Assembly (NCBI GenBank): GCA_025716815.1
Contig: JAIXMN010000022.1
Coordinates: 1-64,000 of the forward strand
Reading direction: 5' to 3'
Source of the DNA: Dichotomocladium elegans
Taxonomy: Eukaryota; Mucoromycota; Mucoromycetes; Mucorales; Lichtheimiaceae
DNA: 64,000 bases
Shown: piece by piece, positions 1-39,414 of the stretch
Position numbering within the stretch: position 1 is the stretch's first letter
Layout: each line of letters opens with the position of its first letter
Program-made: the position numbers and the translations under genes
The notes under the pieces: generated by a model
The model's input: the letters and a program-made list of their open reading frames with translations, nothing else
Told to the model about the DNA's origin: nothing
Databases searched by the model: none

Positions 1-1347
1 GTTGCAGAACAGGATATTCCTCCCAACGACGCATATGCCGATTTTCAGGAGCCCCCTAACTTCTTGGTGCGTGGCGAACGGATTAATTGCCTGCTCTACG
101 CTGATGACGTGGTCCTCATTGGATCATGGTCTACCATGCCTGTTCTTCTGTCTGCATGCGAGCGACACAGCATTCAGCTCGGGTATCGCTGGAATCCCGC
201 CAAGTGCGCGGTGCTGTTCGACTCTGCTCACGCCCCAACCCAACGCCCATCCCTATGCTTGTATGGCACCGACCTCCCGCGATCGCCCTCCTTCAAGTAC
301 CTTGGGATTCCCTTTTCATCTGCTGGCCAGATCGATCACCAAGCCCTCCTTCACCTCAATACCACTGCCGCCCTCACGAGCATGCGGATGCTGCACGCCA
401 TTGGCGTCAGCCCGTATGGCTTCCCTCGCCTCCTCGCCACCCGTATGTACCAGCAATTTATACGGCCAAAGATGGAATACGGCCTCGCGCTGATCAACCT
501 CACCCGCCAAGACATCAAAACTCTTGAGCGCGCCCAAGATCAATGCCTTCGCATGATCTTTGGGGGACACAAGACCGCCTCCACTGCCGTCTTCCGCCAC
601 CTCACCCGCCTTCCCCACATGGTCGACCGAGTTGCCATCCTCCAGGCCAAGTTTGTGCACCGTGCATACAACTTGCCTGACGACACCCTCCATTCCGCAC
701 TCCTCCCTTCCATCAAGCAGCCCAGACACCTTTGGCCAAAGTTGCATCGCTCTTCGGTGTGGGTGGCCCTTTCTCGTCATAGGCATCAAGCCTCAAGAGT
801 GGACTTGAAAGGTGCCATCCGCAGCTGTTTGCAAGACCGCCTCGCCGACCAGCTCGCTTCCTCCCGCGCCATCCTCCTAAGCGCATGCCGTCCACGCCTT
901 GGCATTGACCCGGTCATGTACTTGCCAATGACGAATAAGGAACGCAGCCGCTGCATCCGCTGGCGTATGGGCTGGCTCCCTGGCCGCCCTAAACCATGCT
1001 GGTGTAAGCATGATCACACAAGCCGCCGTCACCTCATTTTCTGCCTCAACATGCACGCTCGGTTGAGGGTCGCCAATGATGATGATCATCGCGATCCGCT
1101 CTCATTGGTCCTCAACCAGCTGCCATGCTCTGAGATCACCTCCTCCTCCCGCATCAAATACTGGCAACGCACATGGCCAGTGGTGTGCCAGATCCTCCTC
1201 GAGGTCGACATGGCGTGTCACCTTGATGAGGATTTCTCCGCCTCGCAAGACCCCGACCTCGGTGGATCTTTTCTCCGTTGGCTCGAGCGTTCTGTCCCTG
1301 TTCCTGCAACTGAAGCAATCCTGGATGATTTCGTTCCTGCTCCCTAA
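1..1347 (+). CDS. LINE (non-LTR) reverse transcriptase, 3' part, truncated by window edge
   Basis: The frame is open from the first base to the TAA at 1345-1347 (about 448 residues), so the true start lies outside the window. The reverse transcriptase catalytic motif YADD is at 97-108, followed by the thumb and connection region typical of LINE ORF2 proteins. Near the C terminus a cysteine/histidine cluster (CWC, then HDH, H and C, about 997-1041) resembles the zinc-knuckle-like end of many LINE ORF2 proteins. No RNase H or LTR is seen. The protein would copy the element's RNA at a nicked target site. A broken copy of the same family lies inverted at 2336-3179. The visible reading frame has no internal stop, so this copy may be young, but whether the 5' half is intact cannot be seen. 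Confidence 0.9.
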   Translation, partial: VAEQDIPPNDAYADFQEPPNFLVRGERINCLLYADDVVLIGSWSTMPVLLSACERHSIQLGYRWNPAKCAVLFDSAHAPTQRPSLCLYGTDLPRSPSFKYLGIPFSSAGQIDHQALLHLNTTAALTSMRMLHAIGVSPYGFPRLLATRMYQQFIRPKMEYGLALINLTRQDIKTLERAQDQCLRMIFGGHKTASTAVFRHLTRLPHMVDRVAILQAKFVHRAYNLPDDTLHSALLPSIKQPRHLWPKLHRSSVWVALSRHRHQASRVDLKGAIRSCLQDRLADQLASSRAILLSACRPRLGIDPVMYLPMTNKERSRCIRWRMGWLPGRPKPCWCKHDHTSRRHLIFCLNMHARLRVANDDDHRDPLSLVLNQLPCSEITSSSRIKYWQRTWPVVCQILLEVDMACHLDEDFSASQDPDLGGSFLRWLERSVPVPATEAILDDFVPAP

Positions 1348-29991: not shown

Positions 29992-30901
29992 TATACACTT
30001 TTTTTCAAAATCAAAGTCGCGCTCTGCCAGATCTGAAATCGCAGGATCGCAAAAATATAACTCGCATTTTGCCCAGAAATCTTTACGCGTGATGACAAAT
30101 CGAATGTCACACACATACACGGAAAGATGTCGCACAAAAAAAGAAGCTTTCTCTTTTATACACTTTAACGTTCTGAAATGGGCAACCTAATTTTCTACCA
30201 AGATGGCCAAGGTCATGTCGTTGATGAGCGTGGATGCCTTGAACCTATGGACTATGCCATTGATGAGGAAATGTGCTCACTTCAACCCGTTTGTTCTCAC
30301 ACTGAATATCTGCGTAGCATATTGTGCAAAGATAACCCTGATCTTACTCCCACACACATTCCCCAGCGAAAGGATACAGACATTCGGATGAAAGAAGCTG
30401 GGATCAAGCGCAGTTACACAGCATAAACTGACCAAGGCAAGGTCAGATTTTTCAAACGGATGTTTAAGATCTTGAGTGCGTCAGCTGCTAGGTCTCCATA
30501 TTTGTTCAGCCCAGCGATGGGCATTACAGTACAAGAAGGACCCTGACAGCATCTTTAAGAAACCTAACACGGGGGGACCGTTCGCGTATTCTCAATGAAG
30601 AGCATAAGCGCATTCTTTTAGAATGCGTTGATGAAGACCCATCCATTGTTCTAGAGTAGCTGCTCCAACGATTTGAGGGTCTCAAAGCATCTAAAACGAT
30701 TTATGAAAACGTATGCAACTTGTCATTAAAAATGGTTCGGTTTCAGCCCATAGACAGGAATAATGCTGCGAAGATCCAAGAGCGCCTTGACTGAGTATGC
30801 AGATGGGGTAGGACCAACATCGACTTCAAAAGCTGCGTTTTTTTCTTTGATGAGTCTGGATTTATCTTGTTTACGACACTTAACTTTGAAAATAAAGTAT
30901 A
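29992..30901 (+). mobile_element. Tc1/mariner-like element, internally deleted, TA-flanked
   Basis: The left end reads TACACTTTTTTTCAAAATC after a TA. The right end, read on the other strand, is TACTTTATTTTCAAAGTTA before a TA. The two ends pair as imperfect inverted repeats. Inside, a frame starts MGNLIFYQDGQGHV (30178) and continues, with stops and shifts, through HTEYLRSILC, RMKEAGIKRSYTA, NEEHKRILLECVDEDPSIVL, RFEGLKASKTIYENV and VFFDESGF. The last is the segment after which Tc1/IS630 transposases carry the rest of the DDE catalytic domain. That part is missing: the sequence jumps straight to the right end. The element is therefore non-autonomous and dead. Confidence 0.75.
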
Positions 30902-31689: not shown

Positions 31690-32520
31690 TCATTTGGTGT
31701 GACGGAAAATAAGCCAAACACTTGACAAACGCCCTCCTTAAGCTTATATTTATTCATTTCGCCGATTGAAGAAGCGTTAGGGAAGATGAGATAATGTCAA
31801 TCTGCAGATTCCTTACTTGCGACTTAGGGCTGATATGCTTTTACTTGGTTGGCGGCCGCGAAGCGTCAGGTTTCATTGAACAGTGTCTGATGCCAATATA
31901 GCTACCAAAGATTCTCGTTGTCTTCGGTGCTGTGATCACTGAGAGTTGTTTCTTTAGACTATCCATGCTGCCTTTCATATCAATATGGAAAAACCCAGAC
32001 TTATCAAGGAAAAATGATGTACGTACCTCTAAAATCAGTGTCGGTTTATGTCACATCGGTGTACTCATTAGGGCGCTCTCCTACAACCTCGCATTGCTAT
32101 TCCTGTCTATAGGCTGAAAAAAAGCCTTTCTAATGGCAAAAGTTGCACCCGTTTTTTTTTTGGATAGCCGAAGTCCAGCAAATTACTGCGACAGTTGATT
32201 CATAAGTTGCTCTAGAACAATGAACGGGCTCTCTTCAAAGCAGACTAGAATATCCTGATATCTATCTTTCTTAAACGTTCCATTAATGCTCTTCTCGTAC
32301 TGTAACATACATTGGTGTGCTGAGAGTACATGTATTCAGTTTTGAAAAATCGATGTTTTGTATTTGGAGTGTATATTGTGTAGATGTGCTTGAATCCCAC
32401 TTCTTTCATTAGAATGTGCGCATGCGCTCGTTTGATAGTATGCAACGCATAAGCTCAGAGCCGGCGCTGTAACGTAGTTGCAAAGATATTCTGCGTGGGA
32501 ATAAACAAACTGAAAGGACT
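31690..32520 (-). pseudogene. Decayed Tc1/mariner-like transposase
   Basis: Read on the minus strand from 32520 downward, the same family appears in pieces. FSLFIPTQNI comes first, then ILMKEVGFKHIYTIYT and ERLRKIDIRIF, then ESPFIVLEQLMNQL near 32210, and FLDKSGFFHIDMKGSMDSLKKQ with KTTRI near 31920-32000. The 'SGF.HI.MK.S...LKK' text is the conserved area following the first catalytic Asp of IS630/Tc1 transposases. Many stops and frameshifts interrupt it. Beyond about 31690 similarity fades. Confidence 0.65.
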
Positions 32521-32823
32521 ATGTTTCCTCATCAAGAAATCGATCGCTTAAATCTAAATGTTGAATACCAGTAAAGAAGTATTGGCAGGCACCGAAAAAG
32601 CTGACATCTTGCGAAAAGATCTATTATTCTTCTGCGACTTTGGTTTCAAGAGAGCGTGTATATTCGCCGTCCAGTTGAGCGAGCTTCTCAAGTCATCAAG
32701 ATGGCAACATTTTGGTACTTTAATGATGTGTTCTTGCAAGATAATTCAAGCAGTACCATAATCGGTAAACAAGGATACTATTGGTTTTCAAAGGAGGCTA
32801 GTTTTGAGTGAAAGTGATCGATA

Positions 32824-32997: not shown

Positions 32998-33610
32998 TAT
33001 ACACCATTTTTCAAAATCAAAGTCGCACCCTGCCAGTTTTGAAGTCGCAGGATCGCAAAAATACAAAACGCATTTTTGTCCGGAAATCTTTACGCGTGAT
33101 GACAAAGCAAAAGTCGCATACATACACGGAAAGATGTCGCAAATCCATCTCATCCTTATGACTCTTTCTCTTTATAAACTTTTACATTTTGAAATGAGCA
33201 ATCTATTATTTTACAACGATGGCCAAGGTCATGTCGCTGATGAGGAAATGTACTCACTTCAATCCGTTTGTTCTTACACTGAATATCTGCGTAGCATATC
33301 GTGCAAAGATAACTCTGAGTTTACTCTCACACACATTCCCAAGCGAAAGGATACATACATTCGGATGAAAGAAGCGGGGATCAAGGGCAGTTACACAGCA
33401 TACACTGATCAAGGCAAGGTCAGATGTTTCAAACTGGTGTTTGAGGAGGTATTGAGTGCATCAGCTGCAGCAAAACAGCTAGGACTCCATGTTCGTTCAG
33501 CACAGCGATGGGCATTACAGTAAGAAAAGGATCCTGACAGCATTTTAAGAAACGTAGAAGCAGGGGGCCGATCGTGTATTCTCAATGAAGAGCATATCGA
33601 GAAGACTAAG
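32998..33610 (+). pseudogene. Tc1/mariner-like transposase fragment
   Basis: The left end TACACCATTTTTCAAAATC is at about 32998. A frame starting MSNLLFYNDGQGHVADEE (33194) runs 110 residues through SYTEYLRSISC, IPKRKDTYIRMKEAGIKG, SASAAAKQLGLHVRSAQRWA and stops at about 33523. The last part looks like the helix-turn-helix that binds transposon ends. Just after the stop, the family text continues out of frame (ILNEEH). The catalytic domain and right inverted repeat are absent. The fragment sits between two MITEs. Confidence 0.7.
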
Positions 33611-33973
33611 TTTATTCTTGGAAAGAACAAAGAACTATGGGAGTGTGCTTTCTTTGTCAATGAGCCATTTAGCCTGGGGATTGTAACTCCGAAGCTGGTT
33701 ATCAAATGGAATAATGAAGTAATAGCTTTCAGGAGACTCCTGTGTTCTCATTGTAATATTCAGAGAAATTATTCATTATGTACCTACACTTTCTGAACGT
33801 ATGGATAAGGATGACAGCAGTGTCGTGTTTTGTTGTGTTGTAAGAGACTGAGAGAGTACGAAAAGAAGTACAATCTTCCTACACTACACAAGTGCCGGAT
33901 ATGTATCGGATTATTCTTGAGATGGTCTCTTGGAATTACTTGTTGGAATTGTTTGGGATTTCATTGTTGATTT

Positions 33974-34143
33974 CAGACCGCCCCTTATAGTTATACCCTC
34001 GGTTCCAGGAAATCGCATCACTATAATGAATTATCACTATAATGAATTGGAATAAGCCCTACCTGGCAATTTTGTCCTTCATAAAGTGCATCGCTATAAC
34101 GAATTATCATTATAATGAATATCACTATAACGAGCGGCTGCTG
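33974..34143 (+). mobile_element. pogo-like MITE, right copy (170 bp)
   Basis: It starts CAGACCGCCCCTTATAGTTA and its other end, read on the minus strand, starts CAGCAGCCGCTCGTTATAGT. A TA follows at 34144-34145, while the left flank is TT, so the target duplication is imperfect or mutated. It shares with 32824-32994 the same orientation, nearly the same length and the same internal repeats. It lies 245 bp upstream of the Fanzor ATG. Confidence 0.7.
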
Positions 34144-34209
34144 TAAAACCTCATTAAAGAACCCAGTGGGAAAAAGAAAAACACTATGGAGATGGATCAT
34201 TGCTGACAC

Positions 34210-34217
34210 TATAAATA
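34210..34217 (+). promoter_or_regulatory. TATA box of the Fanzor gene
   Basis: A 'tataaata' sequence sits inside the short palindrome 'cactataaatagtg', about 180 bp upstream of the ATG at 34389. The expected transcript start is near 34240. A 56-bp intron in the 5' leader (34318-34373; donor 'gtaata', branch-like 'tactaag', acceptor 'ctag') fits this arrangement. Confidence 0.55.
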
Positions 34218-34388
34218 GTGATGCTCAAGCAAGCTGTCCCTTTCCATTATCCACATACAAAACTAGAGCCCATTCAGCCTACAGAAAATAACACAGCACC
34301 ACATTTACGGTTGAAAGGTAATACGGCCGCTTTCATACTCGGCTCTGCGATACTAAGAAATAATATACCCTAGGTCTTCACCCACCAA

Positions 34389-36587
34389 ATGGCCCAACTC
34401 CACCGCCCCGTCATTCCCGAAGGCATGCGCACTGGCCACAGCATTGACCGCACTGGCCGTATAATTGGGGTGAAATCGTCCATACGGGGCATCGGCTGGC
34501 GACAGCAGTACCGTGAACGTCTGTATCAGTTGGTTGACCTTGTCCACAACACCACAACACAGGCGTACGCGTTCGCCAAATATATTTTCATCAACGAGGC
34601 AGCGCGCGATCCAACTTTTAACATCCAGGAAAACATCACGGAGAAGTTCTTTTCAGAAGTTTGGCTCTCCATGGTTAACAAAGCCGAACGCCGCACCCAA
34701 GGTGAAACTGCCCGCATCCGAGAACTAATTAACCGCCACAAGGATGAGTACCTTCGGATATCCGGATACGACAGGCCTGCGTTCCCTTATTCCCAGCAAT
34801 GTTCTTCTTACGAAGGCACCAAGATTTATACTGCTTACGTGAATAATGTCCACATGCGGTTCGGGCAACACCTTCGGCGTGTCATCAATGTCATCCTGAA
34901 TCTTCGTCAGCGAAAAGCCGACCGCAAGCGAGAGTTAATCGCACAGGGCCTAAGCCCCGATCAAGTACGCCAGGACCTTTATGAAACCATCACCCGGCAT
35001 GCCACAGGATTCAAGCTAGCAATTGCCCGTCGAGGTGTTTTGAGGGAAGACATTAACGCCGAACCTGGATTTCTTCGAGAAGCATACGATATCCTACAAC
35101 CTGTCTTAAACGCTTACCCCCGAAACCACCAATTCCAACACCAGAGTATCTATTACGACGCCAAGGCCAATCCTGTTAAGCATTTCAACGCCTTCTTCCA
35201 GCTTGCACGCGTTTGTCAACAGAACGGAATACGCGGATTCAACTGTTTTCCACTTCGTCGCTCGTGGTCACCATGCTACATGGAGATCGATACGAAAATC
35301 CTTTGCTACCATATCCTGGGCTGCAAAATGGAATCCCACACAAGCAATATGGAGTACTGGAGACGTGTTGTAAACCTGAAATCAAGAGCTTTCAAACCCC
35401 AAGAATCCGAGCTGCTCCAATTCCGTGGGACTATTCACACTGACGGCGTCGGTGTTACTGTGTTCAAGAAGACAAATGGCCTTCAATCGGGTTTCGGACA
35501 GAGATTTGGCATCCAGAGCGAAGATATCGAATACGTCACCCCACAGATACTCCGGAACGAAGACTATAGAGGACAATGGGTCACCATTGATCCTGGCAGA
35601 AGGGACCTGTTGTATTGCGTTCATGAGAACTCGTCACCCGACAACCACCAGACCTTCCGATATACAAAGCAGCTTCAAGATCATACACGGAAGACCAAAC
35701 GGTACCGCAGACTCCGAGAACGACTCAAGTTAGAGCGACCCGAGGTCGCGTTGGCTGAGCAGAATCTATCTCAATTTCAAAGTCATACGCTTTCCGTGCC
35801 CAACTACGACGGATACCTCGCCGCCAAGAACAGGGTCTCTGTAGTTCTCAAGTCTTTCTACGCGACAACCACTACGAACCACCCGAACCCGCAATTTCTT
35901 TTTCGAAAACTTCGCCTGTCAGCGTTTTACAAGAAGCAGCAAGCAGATGAAAAGCTTCTCGATTCTTTGAATGCGAAGTTTGGCAGTAGATCCGTTTTCG
36001 TGATGGGAAATTGGTCTGCGCCGCATACAAGATATCACGAGCCTATCCGTGGTGTCGGCTTCCGGCGGCTGTTGAAGAAGAACAATTGCAATATTTATTT
36101 GGTCGACGAGTACAAGACAAGCAAGTGCTGCCCTGTATGTGACAATGAAAGCCTTGCTACCTTTAAAATGGTTCCTAATCCACGCCCATATCGACGACCC
36201 GACAATCCGCTCACGATCTGCCATGGCCTGCTACGGTATGAAGGACGGGCATGTTGTGTTATACTTCCAAAAGATTATAATACAGTATTTTGATGTTTCA
36301 ATAGATGCACAAATCAAAACTGTACAGCAGGCATGGCAGAGGGTGTTTGTCAACCAAGGTTATGGAACCGGGATCTGGCGGCGGCCCTCAACATGCATCA
36401 TATCCTCCGGGGTCTTCGGGAAGATGGTATCATCCCAGCAAGGTTCCAGAGAAGAAATGCTGCACAAGCATCCGCAGCTGGTGGAAGACCACACTCACCT
36501 GAACCAGAGCAGCGCAGCGTGAGACCACGACGGGCAAGGCCAGGAAGGCCACGAGGTGCACGCTCTGGCGGGTCGAGACGACCGTAA
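34389..36587 (+). CDS. Fanzor (eukaryotic TnpB-like RNA-guided DNA endonuclease), intact, two coding exons
   Basis: Exons 34389-36235 and 36305-36587 join to 709 residues. The 69-bp intron (donor GTATGA, acceptor ATAG) contains the stop that would otherwise end the protein at 36293. RuvC-I is IDPGRRDL with Asp401. The displaced catalytic glutamate of Fanzors is Glu574 in VDEYKTSK. The C4 zinc finger is C581-x2-C584 and, after splicing, C617-x4-C622. RuvC-III is WNRDLAAALNM with Asp639. This satisfies the published Fanzor pattern D-x(125-275)-[TS][TS]-xx-C4 finger-x(5-50)-RD (Asp401 to Thr577 is 176 residues). The N-terminal 400 residues, rich in helix and basic residues, would hold the RNA- and DNA-recognition lobes, and 'HTDGVGVTVF' before RuvC-I is a family block. 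The tail (residues 650-709) is Arg/Pro-rich and may act in nuclear import. Known Fanzors cut DNA guided by an RNA encoded at the locus 3' end. Family assignment is firm; activity is inference. Confidence 0.95.
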
Positions 36588-36589
36588 CC

Positions 36590-36720
36590 CCAACCAAGAA
36601 TTTTCCGCGTCAGTTATCGCTGACGCACCCAGGATAACCACAGCCCTTCGGGGCAAGCCCCCTTCCTTTGGAAGGACGGTGTGTTGTAAGTCAACGGGAT
36701 TGGAGAAGGCGTAGTGTTTT
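36590..36720 (+). ncRNA. Candidate Fanzor guide RNA scaffold (omegaRNA/fRNA)
   Basis: Directly after the Fanzor stop, a GC-rich segment folds on paper into a series of hairpins. The first is GCGTCAG at 36607-36613 pairing with CTGACGC at 36620-36626 around loop TTATCG. The second is GCCC/GGGC around the stable tetraloop TTCG at 36643-36654. The third is CCTTCC/GGAAGG around TTT at 36661-36675. A weaker outer pairing (CACA near 36639 with TGTG near 36680) could bundle the last two. The first and third hairpins recur, with compensatory changes, downstream of the broken Fanzor copy (48801-48870). In known TnpB and Fanzor loci the guide RNA scaffold overlaps or follows the nuclease 3' end, with the guide beyond it. 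Exact ends, and overlap with the last exon, cannot be fixed from sequence alone. Confidence 0.65.
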
Positions 36721-36759
36721 CTGCTGACTAACAGGGTTTCATCCATGGATGCGAAATCT

Positions 36760-36871
36760 TTTTACCTATTGATACGACAAATTTATATAATTCTATGCGA
36801 CATTTTTCTTATCTTGTTTATGACATTATTTTATCTTGTTTACGAAATTTATTTTTGGGAATAAAGTATAA
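36760..36871 (+). repeat. Tc1-like 3'-end fragment
   Basis: The text 'tttatcttgtttacga' followed by an A/T stretch and 'aataaagtata' matches the right end of the element at 29992-30901. A second partial copy of 'ttatcttgttta' lies about 28 bp earlier. No transposase text remains. It lies just beyond the candidate guide RNA region and may mark the edge of older inserted DNA. Confidence 0.5.
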
Positions 36872-38074
36872 CGGATAGTGAGGAAGGAGAAGACGATGAT
36901 ATAACTTTCATTGAGTATGTATAGAATTTGAGCCATTAATTATCCCCCATTGCTACGGCGATCCACCCCCAAAAGAATATATCAGGACCAGTGAATGCAG
37001 CTTCATGCGTTATCGATCGTCTCAATTAGGATTGCGATACTGCCAAAAAGGGACGCTTCCTATCGAGTGAAAAGCGACGAAACTGAGCATCATGCGGACA
37101 TAGCGTAGGACTATTTCATCGTAGACAGACGGCTAGTTTTGCGTAGCAGAGACAATACTGATAGAAGAAGAAAGGTCAGGATGACTCTCACAAGGTCTGA
37201 TAAATGGAGGTCTCGACCGCTGCTCGTAGGCAGCCATGCGCGCGCCCCAACCAATCCCCGCGCGCACTCTGTTAATAATAGACCCAAAACCTTAAAAGAA
37301 AAGAACACGAGACATCGAATTCATTTCTTTTGCTAGCGGTCCCCAAATCTGACAGTGAAGGAACAACAAACCTGATCAATCAGCATCTGTACTACCGTTC
37401 ATGTAACTACTCTTTTCCACAATGGTGGCAGGAACAATAAAGGTGGCGCCGGATGATCGAAAGAGAGGATTGGAAAGAGCAAATAACAAATGAAAAATAT
37501 ACGGGAAACGGCTTGTGCCTTTTGTCTCGGTCCACTTTATGCGGTCCAGACCAGGTAGATCATTAATTCCACTTTTGTCTTTTTCTCTACCAAAAACAGA
37601 AGCAACATTCTCCTCCGACCCGAAAGAAGGGCCCCATTTCATGCACCATGCCGTGAAACGTTGAGGGCAATTACTTGGTTGTGAGAGAATGGGAAGAAAG
37701 ACGGAAAGGAAAAGGGCGCAGGAGTGCGTAAAGAGTGAACGCAAAAGAAGAGAGTGGGGAAGAGAGAAAATGAGAAATAGGCTAGGCCGAGCGAAAAGAA
37801 AAGGAGAAGGTCGCGACCCTCTGGGGTTCGTGCGCACATGCAGTCTTTATTTGCGAATGTCATGGCTTGTATCTCTTTCTTTCCTCTTTTCTTCTTCTCC
37901 CCTCTCCTCCTCTTCCTCTTCCCATCAGCAAAGCCATTAAGTCACAACAAAAAGGCATCACATTCTTTCGCACTCTTGTTCTCGCCGCTAAGAAAGAAAA
38001 AGGTGTCCCTTAGCCAGTTTCACTGTTCCGAGTCGCCTTTCGCTTCTCCAATATCAACTAAACCCTTGGCCGAC
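36872..38074. other. Intergenic, no gene recognised
   Basis: Purine-rich (GAAAGAG-type) DNA at 37680-37810 and its pyrimidine-rich continuation near 37870-37920 produce long spurious frames on both strands. It serves as the leader region of the acetyltransferase gene. Confidence 0.4.
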
Positions 38075-38875: not shown

Positions 38876-39030
38876 CATTGTATAAAGAGTACTTTTTTTA
38901 AGAATAAATTTCGTATTCATGATCAATATCTATCCAGATGGGGCATCTGGGATAGCTTCAGCTTTGCGAAAGGCGTACTACCTATTACTAAATAATGGAC
39001 CCTCTGCTTCTACACTTCTTAAAAATGATG

Positions 39031-39414
39031 TCAGGGTCTTTTTACGTACCATTCAAGGCCATCCTGTGCTGAAAGAATATAGATTCCGAGCTTTATTGCA
39101 GAAGATGATGCACCCAAAACTTTCTCAAACATCAGCTTGAACGGTCCGATCTTGTTTTGGCCAGTGTCGGTTGTAGGACCCACCTCTTCCATCAGGATGT
39201 CCGTATCAGTTCGTTCAAAACATGAGATAGCAACAGGCTTAGAGTTACCATCCCAAGGGCAGGTATTCTGCGTGGGAACAAATGGATTGAAGAGAGTACG
39301 TCCCCTTGTCAATGCGATAACCCGTAGGCTCGTCAGCACTATGGCCTTGTCCATTTTCGCAAAGGATTTGTTGCTCAGTTTAGAATGATGAATGTGTATA
39401 GAGGGAGAAGACAT
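39031..39414 (-). pseudogene. Tc1/mariner-like transposase N-terminal relic
   Basis: A minus-strand frame of 127 residues contains NPFVPTQNTCPW, ILMEEVGPTTDTGQNKIGPF and KLMFEKVLGASSSAIKLGIY. These align in order with the N-terminal region of the relics at 33194 and 30178 (SYTEYLRSISC, RMKEAGIKGSYTAYTDQGKV, FKLVFEEVLSASAAAKQLGL). The DDE domain and terminal repeats are absent. Although the frame is open, it is a fragment. Confidence 0.6.

Follow-up and report, generated by a model that had tools for sequence, protein, structure and literature searches.

Does a Fanzor nuclease keep or spread the transposon in which its gene resides? The question is raised by a gene at 34389–36587 of a 64,000-nucleotide stretch of DNA from the mucoralean fungus Dichotomocladium elegans (GenBank assembly GCA_025716815.1, contig JAIXMN010000022.1, positions 1 to 64,000 of the forward strand; here, the window), which, read as one frame, ends before the third catalytic motif, RuvC-III, is reached. 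It is probably an intact Fanzor1 gene on a short, recently amplified element of the Tc1/mariner type that lacks a transposase catalytic domain of its own and whose maintenance would be RNA-guided and in trans. A first-pass annotation, made from the letters of the window alone, was right about the gene, its intron and its motifs, and missed the larger setting: an amplified transposon, a hairpin RNA at its right end and matching transposase genes elsewhere. The genome searched comprises 39.4 Mb in 122 contigs, the window lying on the one labelled C38; stretches fetched from it are called loci (L001 and so on), and 50 such loci underlie the intron and frame counts.

A catalytic site completed by predicted splicing

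The unspliced frame runs from the ATG at 34389 to a TGA at 36291–36293 and encodes 634 amino acids, without RuvC-III. That TGA lies in frame within a 69-nt GT-AG intron, 36236–36304 (GTATGA...TCAATAG). Joining exon 1 (34389–36235, forward strand) to exon 2 (36305–36587, same strand) gives 709 amino acids and a stop, with D401 of RuvC-I (35589–35591), E574 of RuvC-II (36108–36110), the second half of the zinc finger (C617 and C622) and D639 of RuvC-III (36372–36374) all present. The joined frame holds the residues named in the first-pass annotation, and all four cysteines of the finger are present. A protein made with the intron retained lacks RuvC-III, so splicing is required for a cutter, and since the active site is split by a small conserved intron, simple gene finders truncate the protein. 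Such shortening, which the first-pass annotation expected of automated calling, is seen in public gene models that end at or near the motif HGLLR, and the second small open reading frame (ORF) that it foresaw does begin with an ATG at 36333.

By sequence and predicted fold the spliced protein is a Fanzor1; its nuclease activity is a prediction. It matches the Parasitella Fanzor1 in the Protein Data Bank (PDB) at E 1.1e-129 and SpuFz1 at E 2.8e-52, which bears out the family membership proposed from its motifs, and the predicted fold fits the solved Fanzor1 proteins. The best match in both sequence and fold is Parasitella parasitica Fanzor1 (PpFz1, PDB 9cf0–9cf3), with which it shares the HGLLRC...C, WNRD and DPG motifs in identical order. 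PpFz1 has a cyclophilin-binding RuvC insertion, FRI (PMC11423790). The alignment of the window protein jumps from PpFz1 chain residue 1001 to 1095, so FRI is taken as absent here. The catalytic residues of SpuFz1 are D383, E541 and D606 (PMC10432273), and in our reading of the alignment D401, E574 and D639 match them one-to-one. The features by which PMC10711439 recognises Fanzor1 include the DPG and a relocated RuvC-II glutamate. Here D401 lies in IDPGRRD, and E574 stands six residues ahead of the zinc finger (E574-YKTSKC-C581-PV-C584). The four-cysteine finger followed by the RuvC-III RD (C581, C584, C617, C622, D639) exists only in the spliced chain, its second pair being C-x4-C as in PpFz1. 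Pfam searches with the 634- and 709-residue chains gave sub-threshold matches only; the label PF26935, carried by the precomputed entries of most homologues, is absent from those results, and Pfam neither confirms nor excludes the assignment.

An old intron position

When both exons were searched by tblastn against the 50 loci, with a recount by sequence patterns, both exon edges could be located in 47 (the exceptions being L019, L040 and L042). One of these, L037, has a gap of 25 bases without AG and was left out. In all 46 remaining loci the gap is at the identical codon. Its length is 69 nt in 28 loci, 65 in six, 64 in five, 68 in four and 57, 56 and 390 in one each, so that 16 of the 46 lengths are not multiples of 3. 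Donor GT and acceptor AG are present in 43; L007 has donor AT, L018 donor GC and L028 acceptor AA. Many of the loci are close to identical and hence not independent (exon 1 is >90% identical to that of the window in most copies). The independent weight comes from lineages A (the window family), B and C, whose intron interiors differ; exon 1 identity to the window falls to about 48–58% over the main stretches of L031–L037.

Among public homologues, an HGLLR-like motif is present in 60 of 115 (that in P0069 being a chance match elsewhere) and absent from 55. In 34 of the 60 the chain extends from the motif to RuvC-III, with R followed directly by C in 30. In an alignment with 41 homologues, those that reach RuvC-III have no residues in the intron-derived columns, except for four in P0012. 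The other 26 do not reach RuvC-III, and 16 of these end 0–7 residues past the motif, ten exactly at the arginine and five more with tyrosine next; contig ends may account for some of these short models, one model carries the label partial, and there are near-duplicates among them. We infer that reading CGG on into a GTAA or GTAT donor produced the R-stop or R-Y of the short models. The simplest reading of these comparisons is that the intron was at this position before these fungal lineages diverged, and that public models are frequently truncated there; the conserved intron is a candidate explanation of why 16 of the 60 motif-bearing models stop at or just after HGLLR without RuvC-III. Models of that kind should be re-predicted before they are called inactive. 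Comparison of the loci indicates, then, that the intron between the zinc-finger halves is old and is needed for RuvC-III. Literature searches at title level found no paper on a conserved Fanzor intron. The word 'intron' does not occur in the main texts of PMC3627910, PMC10711439, PMC10432273 and PMC11423790 (in PMC10432273 'exon' is likewise absent and 'splice' occurs once); FGENESH predicted multi-exon genes in the Fanzor elements of PMC3627910.

Copy number and selection

The implied rarity of an intact gene was overstated. The Fanzor query has at least 80 matches in the genome (pieces of one copy counted apart, and the best 70 of 861 candidates scored), at least 16 of them full length, without stops and 98–100% identical. 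A complete spliced frame was counted in 18 of the 50 loci: 16 of the window family, L031 and L034. Fifteen copies, compared over 709 codons, show 45 distinct synonymous variants and 36 nonsynonymous ones, where site counts predict 23:77 (binomial p 2.7e-10, without transition/transversion correction). Exon 1 of L001 and L018 differs by 0.063 per synonymous site (dS) and 0.013 per nonsynonymous site (dN), the upstream noncoding sequence by 5.3%. In 21 copies selected as older or diverged, the 5′ noncoding part differs from the window copy by 4.7% (L025 giving no data), the intron by 4.6%, exon 1 by 2.2%, exon 2 by 2.5% and the RNA region described below by 2.7%; the figure for the subterminal part, 8.8%, is inflated by changes private to the window copy. 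These patterns indicate purifying selection on the Fanzor protein, and the copies point to an element recently amplified, with many intact members.

The element, its ends and its insertion sites

Comparison of copies with unrelated flanks places the whole element at 32998–36868 on the forward strand, 3871 bp including the terminal TA at each end. Its left terminal sequence, TATACACCATTTTTCAAAATCAAAGTCGC (32998–33026), is an imperfect inverted repeat of the right, CGAAATTTATTTTTGGGAATAAAGTA (36843–36868), as seen in TACacCATTTTTCAAAATcAAAGTCG versus TACTTTATTTTCAAAAATAAATGTCG. With up to 3 mismatches allowed, the genome holds 184 instances of the left-end motif (92 + 92) and 360 of the right-end motif (182 + 178), and none of the reversed control of either. 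In the right terminal repeat the window copy reads GGG and most aligned copies read GAA, a difference that may bear on the mobility of the window copy. A degenerate smaller relative at 29992–30901 (forward strand) has the same two ends and transposase remnants.

All 22 paired copies have TA at both ends, the TA itself being part of the motif searched. Position −2 is A or T in 21 of the 22 and position −1 in 19; with the AT content assumed to be 54%, the p values are 2.6e-5 and 1.5e-3. Either a transposase preference or a short target-adjacent motif would fit. A search for empty sites with 20 flank cassettes gave 41 matches; 39 fall on the places of the copies themselves and two on a single paralogous site. 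No clean empty site was found among the 20, matches elsewhere to a 20-base guide being below the sensitivity of the search. The paralogous site, L058 (C35:677950–678450), corresponds to the insertion site of L007 and has 51 extra bases between the two flanks, which could reflect target deletion on insertion or an unrelated change. The first left-end bases of L015 (left end 76, right end 3980) and L016 (left end 42, right end 3936) are unlike the family, TATATAGC.. and TATATAGCC.., and match their own right flanks (TATAGCAT and TATAGCCAT); the signs are fainter in L002 and L025. Imprecise repair is one possible cause, a longer duplication another.

A putative hairpin RNA near the right end

Between the Fanzor stop codon and the right end lies a putative omegaRNA scaffold region, whose inferred extent is 36594–36868 (forward strand, as are its parts). 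Its first hairpin, GCGUCAG-UUAUCG-CUGACGC, is at 36607–36626, and a second, GCCC-UUCG-GGGC, read from alignments A1 and A3, is at 36643–36654. By the arrangement described for SpuFz1 (PMC10432273) the native guide is predicted to be the genomic flank just past the right end, 36869–36888. Alignment A1, of 20 right-end regions, predicts an 8-bp hairpin past the stop codon, with double changes in two pairs. Among loci whose right end could be recognised, the UUAUCG-loop hairpin is found in four lineages, usually 183–256 nt from the right end (96 in L032), with stems GCGUCAG/CUGACGC in A, GUGUCGG/CCGGCAC in B, GCCAUUG/CAAUGGU in C and GUCCCGG/CCGGGAC in D; L042 and the small relative at 29992–30901 have no match to the patterns used at their right ends. 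Covariation was assessed on 16 sequences, balanced by lineage, from 31 distinct ones, the search patterns having named stems seen before. Of 112 cells 98.2% are paired, against at most 55.7% in slid controls, and five of the seven pairs have double changes. Among 500 shuffles none reaches the covariation score, two reach the number of pairs with double changes and 291 reach the count of further pair types. Rfam has no match within 36200–36900.

The RNA region exists in at least 40 copies in lineage A and at least 40 in lineage D. L059, a 1234-bp copy of the window family, has kept both ends and the RNA while most of exon 1 is deleted, and resembles the ghost loci of Spizellomyces punctatus (PMC10432273). 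Element C (C57:1657821–1664700, represented by L034 and L056) appears complete, with an intact transposase, an intact inverted Fanzor of the third lineage and the hairpin near the right end. There the Fanzor gene is opposite to the transposase, and the hairpin is still near the right end, on the transposase strand, so the RNA goes with the end and not with the gene's 3′ untranslated region. In four lineages, these alignments support a covarying hairpin RNA close to the right end, including in elements whose Fanzor is inverted or missing. Two side observations concern this region: the count of a 22-bp unit (36798–36855 in the window) varies among the window copy, L016, L002 and L030, the distance from RNA start to element end being 268, 246 or 224 nt, and in L035 another right end, degenerate and with a hairpin of similar form, lies just past the first (419–492, minus strand), perhaps as part of a nested ghost element.

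Broken and intact transposases

Near the left end of the element a 129-residue ORF (33134–33523, forward strand) encodes the N-terminal DNA-binding part of a transposase of Tc1/mariner type, with a weak HTH_23 match below cut-off and the DDE domain missing. The stretch 33170–33595 is 70% identical over 155 residues to residues 35–189 of an intact 473-residue transposase, whose stop-free genes are at C57:1663207–1664628 and C44:468254–469675 in surroundings 99.4% identical over 2490 bases. It has D279, D381 and E416, with 34 residues between the last two, and DDE_3 scores above cut-off; the D-D-34-E spacing we take to be the class label of Tc1/mariner DDE transposases. The left ends of the intact genes (C57:1664700 and C44:468181) differ from that of the window element at five of 29 positions. 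On the C57 strand a right end lies 6.9 kb from the left end, and both would belong to one element; the 9.5 kb retrieved around the C44 copy shows no right end.

The transposase-derived part of L018, a window-family copy, is almost identical to the intact gene. In lineage B (L031, L032, L033, L035, L038 and L039) a broken transposase precedes Fanzor on the same strand, and the 2.1-kb elements L051, L052 and L055, which have the ends of the window element, hold a broken transposase and lack any noteworthy Fanzor frame. The idea that the 129-residue ORF is a conserved regulator found no support. Of 30 loci, 15 keep it open through RWALQ with a length of at least 125 residues; L002, L003 and L008 carry a frameshift, L004 reads through, and further loci have a shorter version or none. 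Its dN/dS of about 0.35 against the transposase includes time as a full gene.

Proposed maintenance in trans and its alternatives

On the model preferred here, an intact transposase encoded elsewhere in the genome would move the element in trans. The spliced protein would bind the right-end omegaRNA, the 3′ end of which, as in the SpuFz1 and TnpB model, would be neighbouring genomic DNA past 36868. Fanzor would then cut an allele or sister chromatid without the element (one that lost it through excision by transposase, or an allele without the insert), beside a short TA-ending motif, and repair from the still-occupied copy would restore or spread the element. Since 19 of the 20 flank cassettes match their own place only, in a search that would miss short matches, a guide would mostly specify the site at which its element sits.

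Several points weigh against this model. Given the five differences in the left end and the lack of a right end within the 9.5 kb at C44, cross-mobilisation is something that we infer. The 51 extra bases in the sole paralogous near-empty site mean that TA duplication is not proven, and selection was measured on copies picked for open frames. RNAalifold on A1 alone finds little covariation, and the folding z-score is −1.88, with seven of 200 shuffles folding as well; support for the RNA comes from the wider set, in which no more than about five lineages are independent, a degenerate one included. The proposed helix between RNA start and right end hardly varies, so covariation is no help there, and a 22-bp subterminal unit that varies in number is odd for a rigid scaffold.

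Were the intron left unspliced, the gene would be a decaying pseudogene or would encode a truncated, catalytically dead RNA-binding protein with D401 and E574 and no RuvC-III. Though the in-frame stop exists and L007 and L028 have splice-site changes, this is very improbable in view of the single intron position with varied lengths, 16 of 46 not multiples of 3, in lineages about 50% identical, the low dN among exon 1 and 2 variants, the 34 homologues that reach RuvC-III, 30 directly, and the 16 intact family-A copies. A transposase-binding or end-processing role for the right-end hairpin would account for its proximity to the terminal repeats and its presence in the transposase-only elements L051, L052 and L055; however, compensatory stem changes with a nearly constant loop are expected of an RNA and not of a protein-bound DNA site, its place and neighbours match the SpuFz1 omegaRNA, and S. 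punctatus ghost loci have the RNA without Fanzor, which together leave a role other than guide RNA quite unlikely.

Somewhat less unlikely is that Fanzor is a passenger or a host-level regulator with no part in transposon maintenance, amplification being due to transposase alone. Element C and the transposase-only 2.1-kb elements indicate that transposase and Fanzor need not travel together, and the biological role of Fanzors is stated as unknown in PMC10432273, but the nuclease is under apparent purifying selection among young copies and the RNA is kept near the transposon end in four lineages. A broader form of maintenance in trans can be put forward tentatively, as a possibility below even odds: the omegaRNA would be a module of the transposon right end and not of the Fanzor gene, carried by transposase-only, Fanzor-only and combined elements, all served in trans by a few intact Fanzors and transposases, the whole being a split system of RNA-guided homing in which every insertion would bring a new guide.

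Other sequences in the window

That the host is a fungus, as first supposed, agrees with the fungal-type domains Zn2Cys6 and CENP-N/CHL4 within the window and with a Ca-ATPase reading frame 88–90% identical to four proteins (its best named match, at 75%, is a protein named from Endogone). Further transposase remnants are on the minus strand at 39000–39358 and at 31844–32545, the second only 34% identical, and an ORF at 64–1347 has a weak reverse-transcriptase match below cut-off.

Relation to known Fanzor elements

Among the known elements closest to this one are PUl-1, PUl-4 and PGv-1, the prefix PUl presumably denoting an oomycete. They have Fanzor1 with or without a Mariner transposase inside matching inverted repeats, PGv being a virus of Phaeocystis (Bao and Jurka 2013, PMC3627910). 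When viral contigs were scanned with the Fanzor alignment, none of 46 pattern matches proved to be a relative. The present case differs from these elements in its fungal host, high recent copy number, inverted-Fanzor variant and resolved right-end RNA. MCi-2 of Mucor circinelloides, with 11 copies 99% identical in the Fanzor-bearing part, is unlike the window element in having no recognisable inverted repeats, 11–12 bp duplications and a partial Crypton gene (PMC3627910). Spu-1 of S. punctatus, about 2.1 kb with a single ORF, is known from 42 loci with full (19) or partial genes plus 134 ghost loci, and no transposase is reported between its matching repeats (PMC10432273). It is alike in being an inverted-repeat element with an RNA between stop codon and right end; here, unlike there, intact and broken transposases have related ends and the Fanzor gene is split by an intron.

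Fanzor1 on mariner-type elements and a Fanzor family of high copy number in Mucor were thus already known (PMC3627910), and what is added is the RNA tied to the transposon end, the inverted-gene variant and the conserved intron. With young, near-identical intact copies, intact transposases with related ends, RNA-only and transposase-only relatives and an element with inverted Fanzor in one genome, whether Fanzor keeps or spreads its transposon becomes directly testable.
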